A DNA stretch of 42,590 nucleotides from the IMG/VR virus record IMGVR_UViG_3300006033_000595, positions 1 through 42,590 of that record, one strand, 5' to 3'. Below, one piece after another: positions 233 through 1,572 of this stretch. The DNA is from a virus. Position 1 is the first letter of the stretch; each line of letters opens with the position of its first letter. Below the pieces are notes generated by a model that was not told where the DNA came from, did not search any database, and was given only the letters and a program-made list of their open reading frames with translations. Position numbers and translations under genes: made by a program.

Positions 233-682
233 ATGGAAACAATTTATTATACGAATCCGGATGGAAGCGTCGTCCCTGTGCACATTGGCGAGGCGGTATC
301 CATCAGCCAGAATGTGACCATCGGCAAGAACGTGCATATCGCGTCCGGAGCGACTATCGGGCAGGGCGCACGAATCGAGAGCGGGGCGTTCATCGGGCGG
401 AGGGCATTCGTCGGGCGCGGAGCGACTATTGGAGAGAATGCGCGAATATGGGGCGGGGCGTTCATCGCACGCGGCGCAAAAATCGAAAGCGGAGCAATGA
501 TCGAAAGCGACGTTACGATCGAGAGCGGCGTTCATGTCGGGCCAAATGTGAATATCAGCGGCGGGCATATCGGGCCAAATGTGCATATCAGCGGCGGCTT
601 TGCACTCAAGGATATCAGCGGCGGCTTTGCACTCAAGGATATCGCAAGAGGATTTTCCGCATTGGTCCGGGCAGTCAAATGA
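233..682 (+). CDS. Hexapeptide-repeat (left-handed beta-helix) protein A
   Basis: This 149-residue protein is almost entirely imperfect hexads of the form [IVA]-G-x-x-[AV]-x (for example IGKNVHIASGATIG), the signature of the left-handed beta-helix fold seen in acyl/acetyltransferases and in some purely structural solenoids. No catalytic histidine loop or acyl-transferase insertion is evident, so enzymatic activity is doubtful. The start ATG is chosen because AAAGGAAAA lies about 7 bases upstream. A TTG further upstream would begin inside the repeat array. The N-terminus (TIYYTNPDGSVVPVHIGE) matches that of the second hexapeptide gene (TIQHTNPGGRVVNVEVGE), so the two are paralogs. The C-terminal third has tandem duplications. 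The stop overlaps the methyltransferase start (ATGA), implying translational coupling. The function is unknown. Confidence 0.85.
   Translation: METIYYTNPDGSVVPVHIGEAVSISQNVTIGKNVHIASGATIGQGARIESGAFIGRRAFVGRGATIGENARIWGGAFIARGAKIESGAMIESDVTIESGVHVGPNVNISGGHIGPNVHISGGFALKDISGGFALKDIARGFSALVRAVK
538..638 (+). repeat. In-frame tandem duplications within hexapeptide gene A
   Basis: Two kinds of direct repeat adjoin here. A 27-base segment at 538-564 recurs 33 bases later at 571-597 with one mismatch, giving the peptide repeats GPNVNISGGHI and GPNVHISGG. A second 27-base segment is duplicated exactly at 585-611 and 612-638, giving the repeated peptide SGGFALKDI. All repeat lengths are multiples of three, so the frame is kept. 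This is consistent with recent slippage altering solenoid length. Confidence 0.9.
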
Positions 683-1572
683 CAGCCTATTACAACGAAA
701 TTGACCCCTTCGTGGCCGACTGGCTGCGGAATCTCATATCCGCCGGACACATAGCGCCCGGCGACGTGGACACTCGCTCTATAGAGGACGTGAAACCGGA
801 TGACCTCAAGCCCTACACGCAATGCCACTTCTTCGCCGGAATCGGCGTGTGGTCCTATGCGCTCCGCCGTGCCGGATGGGCCGACGACCGGCCAGTCTGG
901 ACCGGCTCCTGCCCCTGTCAACCTTTCAGCGCGGCAGGCAAGGGCGGCGGGGTTGCTGACGAGCGGCACCTATGGCCCGCCCTCCATTGGCTCATCTCTC
1001 AGCGCCAGCCTCCGGTCTTCTTTGGCGAACAGGTTGCGTCAAAGGCTGGACTCGGATGGCTCGATCTTGTATCGGCTGACCTGGAAGGAACGGGCTACGC
1101 CTGCGGGGCAGTCGATATCTGCGCTGCGGGCATCGGTGCCCCGCATATCCGACAAAGGCTGTGGATTGCCGCAGAGCGGCTGGCCGACGCCGACGACTCG
1201 CTACTGGAAGGACGGGAGCGGCTCGAATGTCCCCCTGAACGCATTGCTTGGGAGGGTCGTATGGCTGGCAGGCTGGCCGACGCCACAGACGCAGGACGCG
1301 AGCGGAGGCGGTCAGGCGAAGCGTGCGATGGGGGCGACGCGACACGGGTCGAACCTGAACGACTTCGCGATGCTGGCGGGGCCGGCAAGGATCACAGCGT
1401 CCGGCGAGATGCTGACTGGCTCTTCTGCCGGGATGGACGGTGGCGGCCAGTTGAATCCGGGGCATCCCCGCTGGCTCATGGCGCTCCCTCCCGCGTGGGA
1501 CGCCTGCGTGCCTACGGTAACGCGATCCACGCGGAAACGGCAGAAGCATTCATCAGGGCATTCATGAAATGA
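679..1572 (+). CDS. DNA (cytosine-5) methyltransferase
   Basis: This 297-residue protein transfers a methyl group from S-adenosylmethionine to carbon 5 of cytosine in DNA. Motif I is FAGIGVWSYAL (about residues 52-61). The catalytic PCQPFSAAGKG motif IV has its nucleophilic Cys at about 80. Motif VI reads GEQV instead of the usual ENV. Motif VIII is QRLW (about 159-162), and motif X is YGNAIHAETAEAF near the C-terminus. The ending DGRWRPVE...GRLRAYGNAI is typical of short phage Dcm-like enzymes. The region between motifs VIII and X, where the target recognition domain should be, is rich in Ala, Arg, Asp and Glu, and it coincides with a second open frame. The start overlaps the preceding stop, and the 3' end overlaps the next start (ATGA). 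The likely role is protection of phage DNA from host restriction. Confidence 0.93.
   Translation: MTAYYNEIDPFVADWLRNLISAGHIAPGDVDTRSIEDVKPDDLKPYTQCHFFAGIGVWSYALRRAGWADDRPVWTGSCPCQPFSAAGKGGGVADERHLWPALHWLISQRQPPVFFGEQVASKAGLGWLDLVSADLEGTGYACGAVDICAAGIGAPHIRQRLWIAAERLADADDSLLEGRERLECPPERIAWEGRMAGRLADATDAGRERRRSGEACDGGDATRVEPERLRDAGGAGKDHSVRRDADWLFCRDGRWRPVESGASPLAHGAPSRVGRLRAYGNAIHAETAEAFIRAFMK
800..1567 (+). CDS. Probable overprinted protein in the +1 frame of the methyltransferase gene
   Basis: A 255-codon open frame lies entirely inside the cytosine methyltransferase gene. Its translation carries features I recognise from recurrent phage/prophage hypothetical proteins. These are TSGTYGPPS (about 55-63), LYRLTWKERATPAG (about 90-103), two WPTP boxes (WPTPTTRYWKDG at about 128 and WPTPQTQDASGG at about 159), and a C-terminal block with LTGSSAGM, GGQLNPGHPRWLMALPP and WDACVPT. 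A random shadow frame would not show such ordered family motifs. The true start is uncertain. The ATG used here has only a distant GAGG, and frameshift entry is possible. Function is unknown. The alternative is that this frame is only translated in annotation pipelines, its conservation being a by-product of the methyltransferase. Confidence 0.45.
   Translation: MTSSPTRNATSSPESACGPMRSAVPDGPTTGQSGPAPAPVNLSARQARAAGLLTSGTYGPPSIGSSLSASLRSSLANRLRQRLDSDGSILYRLTWKERATPAGQSISALRASVPRISDKGCGLPQSGWPTPTTRYWKDGSGSNVPLNALLGRVVWLAGWPTPQTQDASGGGQAKRAMGATRHGSNLNDFAMLAGPARITASGEMLTGSSAGMDGGGQLNPGHPRWLMALPPAWDACVPTVTRSTRKRQKHSSGHS

Follow-up and report, generated by a model that had tools for sequence, protein, structure and literature searches.

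Long same-strand overlapping genes are few in prokaryotes and often disputed, and the phage locus described here raises the question of whether a single stretch of DNA encodes two proteins at once and, if so, how these two proteins are related. We examined the whole of the IMG/VR virus record IMGVR_UViG_3300006033_000595 (42,590 bases; referred to as the window). An 890-base stretch of the window very probably encodes two proteins from two overlapping frames, which are the catalytic and the DNA-recognition halves of one DNA-methylating enzyme; the same dual coding is seen again in hundreds of phages and prophages. The two coding sequences are as follows:

679–1572, plus strand: 0-frame CDS, putative large (catalytic) subunit of a C5-cytosine methyltransferase, alpha-like; 297 aa; phrog_363 E 6e-82; PF00145 E 5e-10
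800–1567, plus strand: +1-frame CDS, WPTP/motif IX protein, putative beta-like small-domain subunit; 255 aa; ATG start; phrog_1008 E 3e-28

Relative to the ORF at 679–1572, the +1 frame is open from position 794. An earlier note, made from the sequence of this record, had described a +1 ORF open for 255 codons inside a cytosine methyltransferase gene. This ORF is confirmed at 800–1567 with an ATG start, and its translation contains all of the motifs quoted in the note, i.e. TSGTYGPP, LTWK, two WPTP boxes, LTGSSAGM, GGQLNPGHPRWLM and WDACVPT. The motifs do recur among phage proteins, as the note had stated, with matches to phrog_1008 and phrog_31772 at E about 1e-28. The methyltransferase motifs ascribed to the 0 frame (SCPCQPFS, GAPHIRQRLW, DGRWRPVE and GRLRAYGNAI) are present as well, in a protein with the PF00145 and phrog_363 matches listed above. 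Moreover, our results support that the WPTP part coincides with the place where the target-recognition region of a methyltransferase is expected.

We analysed selection in 160 IMG/VR relatives, retrieved using either the 0-frame protein or the +1 protein as query; at every locus, the 0-frame and the +1 matches lie exactly +1 apart. In synonymous codon shuffles of 119 non-redundant sequences, 322 stops were expected in the +1 frame vs 32 observed, and a fully open +1 frame was expected in 6.3 sequences vs 93 of the 119 observed; the same shuffles gave no stop depletion in the +2 and reverse frames. Frequent +1 stops, which by the earlier note would have counted against a second gene, occur before 0-frame residue 43; from residue 44 to residue 272, a single stop was found in 117 non-redundant sequences. 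The synonymous-site constraint that the note had proposed to measure is also evident: divergence at 4-fold sites of the 0 frame is 0.58 at residues 1–30, outside the overlap, and then 0.45, 0.25, 0.29 and, at residues 241–275, 0.097, with up to 83% of the synonymous-site divergence lost within the overlap. At residues 256–270, pairwise differences at codon positions 1, 2 and 3 are 0.202, 0.069 and 0.058, respectively; thus, variability is lowest at the wobble position of the 0 frame and highest at that of the +1 frame.

The dual-frame dN/dS of the +1 frame is 1.2–1.5 outside the overlap and 0.51, 0.33, 0.66 and 0.15 (SN/SS) along it, and that of the 0 frame is 0.23 at motifs I–IV, which are constrained, and 1.15 in the linker at residues 166–240, which is unconstrained. 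Identity of the +1 protein is strongly above synonymous-shuffle nulls from about residue 73 (0-frame numbering) onward; at residues 44–72, it exceeds the null only as much as the outside control does, and constraint barely rises above background in the first 31 residues of the +1 ORF. All of these statistics derive from non-independent sequences, with bootstraps over columns only and with a codon alignment that is poor in the variable region. The most strongly constrained part of the overlap by 4-fold divergence is the following:

1399–1503, plus strand: doubly constrained block, reading DWLFCRDGRWRPVE...PLAHG in the 0 frame and ARITASGEMLTGSSAGM...LNPGHPRWLM in the +1 frame; 4-fold divergence 0.097 vs 0.58 outside; +1 dN/dS 0.15–0.50

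Altogether, the shuffles, stops, 4-fold sites, dN/dS and identity nulls bear out the claim that two frames are constrained at once, with purifying selection in both. We conclude that the 800–1567 ORF is a real, selected protein-coding gene.

This gene also comes with a start signal of its own. Many relatives write the 0-frame residues D-E-R-S-I-E-D like GAT GAA AGG AGC ATT GAA GAT G, a stretch that holds AAAGGAGC, and in many of them AAAGGAGC lies about 8 nt before a +1 ATG at residue 37. AGG is used at R33 in 37% vs 7% at other places in these genes (p 1e-18), and GAT at D37 in 81% vs 38% (p 5e-20); the +1 ATG is present in 52 of the 52 sequences with GGAG vs 32 of the 65 without it (p 3e-11). 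We conclude that synonymous codons are chosen to build a Shine-Dalgarno sequence and an ATG for the +1 ORF. The start signal in the record analysed here is a weaker variant, with an ATG at 800 that arises from D41-D42 and AGAGGA at a spacing of 12 nt:

783–788, plus strand: AGAGGA, possible Shine-Dalgarno sequence upstream of the ATG at 800; AGAGG-to-ATG distance 12 nt; based on the sequence and the family pattern

The 0-frame protein has the features of a C5-cytosine DNA methyltransferase, i.e. a PF00145 match, the PCQ of motif IV, an ENV-like motif VI, which reads GEQV in place of ENV, and motif VIII. Beyond what the earlier note had recorded, the 0 frame also carries motifs II, III and VI, and motif IX is absent from it. 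Its features are:

685–705, plus strand: motif II-like AYYNEID, 0 frame, N-terminal; VIA alignment from model residue 1/M.HhaI residue 34; hhalign E 0.006
823–852, plus strand: motif I CHFFAGIGVW, 0 frame, after motifs II–III; hhalign to canonical motif I, E 2e-4
907–930, plus strand: motif IV SCPCQPFS, 0 frame, catalytic Cys80 in PCQ; C80 and Q81 invariant in the family alignment
1018–1035, plus strand: motif VI FFGEQV, 0 frame; G116, E117 and Q118 invariant in the family alignment
1135–1164, plus strand: motif VIII GAPHIRQRLW, 0 frame; P155, R158 and R160 invariant in the family alignment
1174–1398, plus strand: variable linker between motifs VIII and X, 0 frame, the same DNA being the PTP-box region in the +1 frame; dN/dS 1.15; mostly predicted disordered, pLDDT <50 for residues 187–281
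1498–1527, plus strand: motif X GRLRAYGNAI, 0 frame, followed by C-terminal helix 285–296; helix pLDDT ~97; aligned up to M.HhaI residue 320

An AF2 model of the 0-frame protein has high confidence over most of residues 1–180 and pLDDT <50 at residues 187–281. It aligns with M.HhaI (VIA; Z 14.8, 167 residues, rmsd 2.7) up to HhaI residue 320, and the predicted model accordingly has the large-domain fold with the motif X helix. The predicted fold comprises the large domain (motifs I–VIII) and the motif X helix without a small domain, in place of which there is a disordered linker. A motif IX and a small domain in the same chain, as in single-chain enzymes, are absent from the 0-frame sequence and model. 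Because motif IX is missing and residues 187–281 have pLDDT <50, we regard the 0 frame as encoding the large subunit and not a complete single-chain enzyme. The monomeric M.HhaI and M.HaeIII share the large-domain fold and the motifs with the 0-frame protein; however, they consist of one chain with an inserted small domain and an N-terminal motif I. Instead of the canonical order I-II-III-IV, the 0 frame reads II-III-I-IV at 679–930. The N-terminus aligns with motif II (E 0.006), and the match to motif I comes only at residues 50–65 (E 2e-4); in addition, the fold alignment begins at HhaI residue 34. Motif I has therefore been transposed to a position after motif III.

The +1 protein contains the following conserved elements:

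1058–1144, plus strand: GSILYRLTWKERATPAGQSISALRASVPR, +1 frame, start of the small-domain-like part; kept in the family alignment and in the Bacillota-type family, hhalign E 1e-26
1181–1192, plus strand: WPTP box 1, +1 frame; W128, T130 and P131 at 90% or more
1274–1285, plus strand: WPTP box 2, +1 frame; W159 at 90% or more
1385–1435, plus strand: ARITASGEMLTGSSAGM, +1 frame; G202 and G207 invariant
1451–1501, plus strand: motif IX-like LNPGHPRWLMALPPAWD, +1 frame; hhalign to the in-frame motif IX of actinophage methyltransferases, E 6.7e-5

In the family, the motif IX of the +1 protein follows the pattern LNPxHxRWLMxLPxxWD, and 44 nt separate its first W from the GNAI of the 0-frame motif X downstream. 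Against the PHROGs profiles, the +1 protein matches phrog_1008 (E 3.3e-28) and phrog_31772 (E 8.1e-28); these two families, which are labelled DNA methyltransferase, match the product of 800–1567 and not the catalytic protein. No family match was found in Pfam, NCBIfam or PADLOC, and by sequence profile no relative of solved structure was found, the best match being a peptidase at only E 0.3. Modelled alone, the +1 protein gave a low-confidence model (pLDDT 60.8, pTM 0.29); the best fold match of this model, to GnsA with Z 4.4, is not meaningful. Therefore, the label "small domain" rests on motif IX, on position and on the fusion of the corresponding parts in other phages. Aligned by hhalign with the part after motif VIII of mycobacteriophage methyltransferases, the +1 family profile gave a single alignment (21 columns, E 6.7e-5). 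This alignment falls exactly on motif IX and, therefore, the +1 product most likely represents the recognition/motif IX part of the enzyme to which the 0-frame protein belongs.

Thus, of the overprinted gene proposed in the earlier note, the real and selected +1 coding gene stands, and an overprint unrelated to the methyltransferase is unlikely. In our reading, to which we assign a probability of about 85%, the locus encodes a C5-cytosine methyltransferase split over two same-strand overlapping frames, with the small subunit nested in the +1 frame inside the large subunit. The 0 frame (679–1572) would encode the large subunit with the AdoMet-binding and catalytic motifs II, III, I, IV, VI and VIII, joined by a flexible linker to the C-terminal motif X helix. 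From its own ATG, the +1 frame (800–1567) would give the small subunit with the variable PTP-box recognition region and motif IX. Both products would very probably fold together into one active methyltransferase, probably a heterodimer, in which the +1 product would choose the DNA target and supply motif IX. This reading builds on the observed selection in both coding frames, the partition of the motifs, the 0-frame model that comprises the large domain without a small one, the selected start signal, the homology of +1 proteins across distant phages and the in-frame fusion in actinophages. From these observations, we infer that the +1 frame is expressed in this phage, that its product forms a heterodimer with the 0-frame product and recognizes the target, and that the enzyme may protect the phage DNA from host restriction.

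Split C5-methyltransferases are known. In M.EcoHK31I, the beta subunit is reportedly encoded in the +1 frame inside the alpha gene, and this nesting of the small-subunit gene in the large-subunit gene is the same as here. According to PMC3404938, M.EcoHK31I (and M.EaeI) are alpha/beta C5-methyltransferases in which motifs I–VIII and X are in the larger polypeptide and motif IX only in the smaller one, a partition credited for M.EcoHK31I to Lee, Kam and Shaw 1995. The locus described here has the same partition (I–VIII and X/IX), as judged by a comparison of motifs; therefore, we do not regard it as a new kind of enzyme. It differs from M.EcoHK31I in being a phage gene pair with a transposed motif I. 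Moreover, the variable region with its PTP boxes appears to lie in the +1 frame and the 0-frame linker at residues 166–240 is unconstrained and largely predicted disordered, whereas the predicted recognition domain of M.EcoHK31I was placed in the larger subunit (PMC3404938). We found no restriction-enzyme neighbour or plasmid copy that would mark a relative of EcoHK31I. M.AquI alpha/beta is described in PMC3404938 as a naturally split C5 methyltransferase of two polypeptides. It differs from the locus described here because its small subunit holds motif X together with motif IX, the break being inside the variable region; here, the 0-frame protein retains motif X and the gene for the small subunit is a nested one.

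Among phages, coliphage K1H (ORF29/ORF28, "Mte8-like"), Xanthomonas phage PhiXhv-28 and Paenibacillus phage Genki have the same nested layout with both ORFs deposited, as annotation only; a paper that mentions "Mte8-like" merely lists the name. The window adds one more member to these loci. We found no study of this overlap in phages in the literature searched. Altogether, the kind of system seems to be already known, and what seems to be new here is its breadth, the evidence for selection and the transposed motif I.

The breadth of the overlap bears on the alternative that the +1 ORF, although a genuine overprinted gene, encodes an independent protein, e.g. a regulator or a counter-defence factor, and not a methyltransferase subunit. 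The separate start signal, the lack of a Pfam or NCBIfam family and the lack of a solved-structure relative by sequence are consistent with this alternative. However, the motif IX and the variable region in the +1 frame are exactly the parts missing from the 0 frame. Moreover, the +1 profile alone retrieves loci in bacterial genomes, mostly of Pseudomonadota, and the methyltransferase lies exactly one frame away in 80 of 80; none of these 80 loci has a +1-type gene without an overlapping methyltransferase. In 30 whole genomes, no clear separate +1 copy was found, the matches, which were inspected in part, being known loci or split pieces.

In actinophages, the corresponding parts are also joined to the catalytic domain within one frame. 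Weak tblastn matches led to the mycobacteriophage methyltransferases Ramsey gp69 and VRedHorse gp68, in which PTP boxes, RLAAAFPEWMMGWPAGWVT and LRIIGNGV follow motifs I–VIII in one frame; the order of parts, i.e. motifs I–VIII, PTP boxes, motif IX (EWMMGWPAGW) and motif X, is the same as in the locus described here, but all are in a single frame. In total, we consider an independent +1 protein unlikely.

The +1 protein occurs in 215 annotated phage records, and BcepC6B and N15 also carry it. Phages of Paenibacillus, Vibrio and Stenotrophomonas have otherwise different methyltransferases with the same nested layout, the Stenotrophomonas-type relatives being few. The Paenibacillus-type (Bacillota-type) family comprises 32 clear dual-frame loci, with no single-frame locus seen, and has 34 +1 stops vs 142 expected. 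Its +1 proteins are homologous to the +1 protein of this record (232 columns, hhalign E 1e-26), and the step of 15 codons from the +1 motif IX to the 0-frame motif X is often the same as here; its methyltransferases have the usual motif order, unlike the transposed motif I of the 0 frame of this record. Actinophage loci L248–L279 and that of a Gordonia phage (L315) have early LPTP boxes in the +1 frame and later ones, with motifs IX–X, in the 0 frame; in three actinophage loci (L264, L266 and L269), motifs IX–X are in a different frame from motifs I–VIII. The frames of the actinophage boxes suggest frame switches within the PTP-box array. Broken copies are rare: a stop interrupts the +1 frame in L007 and the 0 frame in L127, and L318 is a plasmid copy in fragments. 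On balance, we tend to view dual-frame C5 methyltransferases as an ancient and widespread phage class with the whole recognition domain in the +1 frame inside the catalytic gene. This layout would be older than the split between the Pseudomonadota and Bacillota types, would rank among the largest conserved same-strand overlaps in prokaryotes and would interconvert with the fused single-frame form via frame switches in the PTP boxes.

Two alternatives concern the way in which a complete enzyme is made. In the first, the 0-frame protein is complete and active with its own recognition region in the variable residues 166–240, and the +1 product merely modulates it. The position of the predicted recognition domain of M.EcoHK31I in the larger subunit, according to PMC3404938, fits this possibility, as does the DWLFCRDGRWRPVE block, which is highly conserved in the 0 frame; however, residues 166–240 are unconstrained (dN/dS 1.15) and largely predicted to be disordered, and the 0 frame lacks motif IX, which makes a complete 0-frame enzyme very unlikely.

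In the second, ribosomes undergo a programmed frameshift, so that the 0-frame N-terminal half continues into the +1 C-terminal half and one complete enzyme results. This would unite motifs I–VIII with the recognition region and motif IX in a single chain, the arrangement seen in the actinophages. Against this, the +1 frame is conserved from about 0-frame residue 73, far upstream of any useful shift point, and the 0 frame stays conserved through motif X. The DNA for motif X lies under and directly beside that for the +1 motif IX and, therefore, a single shift could hardly give one chain with both. Frameshifting between the frames, which the earlier note had suggested for testing, is unlikely in general because the conserved Shine-Dalgarno sequence and ATG, built by synonymous codons, serve independent initiation of the +1 frame; a single enzyme made in this way is highly improbable.

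Finally, spurious long open frames are common in such GC-rich DNA and the ORF list of this record includes long antisense ORFs, but the idea that GC-rich codon bias keeps the +1 frame open by chance, and that it looks conserved through the conserved 0-frame protein, is ruled out by the synonymous shuffles, 4-fold sites, codon-position variability, dN/dS and start-signal test.

If the locus encodes a split methyltransferase, the catalytic and the recognition domains of one enzyme can share the same DNA. This would explain contradictory annotations: deposited records name either of the two ORFs alone (the +1 ORF in PMG1) or both ORFs (K1H, PhiXhv-28 and Genki), and PHROGs labels both families "DNA methyltransferase". 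Codon optimisation of the annotated gene would abolish the second protein, and either protein by itself may lack activity. The overlap is conserved in hundreds of phages and prophages and, therefore, provides a strong benchmark for statistics and a case open to direct testing; its members would also offer many natural split methyltransferases for studies of specificity.

Small hexapeptide-repeat-like (left-handed beta-helix) proteins flank the gene pair at 233–682 and 1569–1958, with similar N-termini (YTNPDGSVVPVHIGE and HTNPGGRVVNVEVGE); the downstream protein matches Hexapep (E 2.7e-20) and the upstream one was recognized by eye only. At the left end of the record (positions 1–150), short tandem direct repeats of TGGTTAACGCGGCGAA and CCACTTGCCGCCAGCGATTCCAAAAAA were noted by eye. 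The ORF at 1945–2280, which contains WRPIEEAPKDGSWILLGYFP, has no Pfam match and is reminiscent of DUF551-type phage proteins; a DUF551 gene adjoins the methyltransferase in some relatives.
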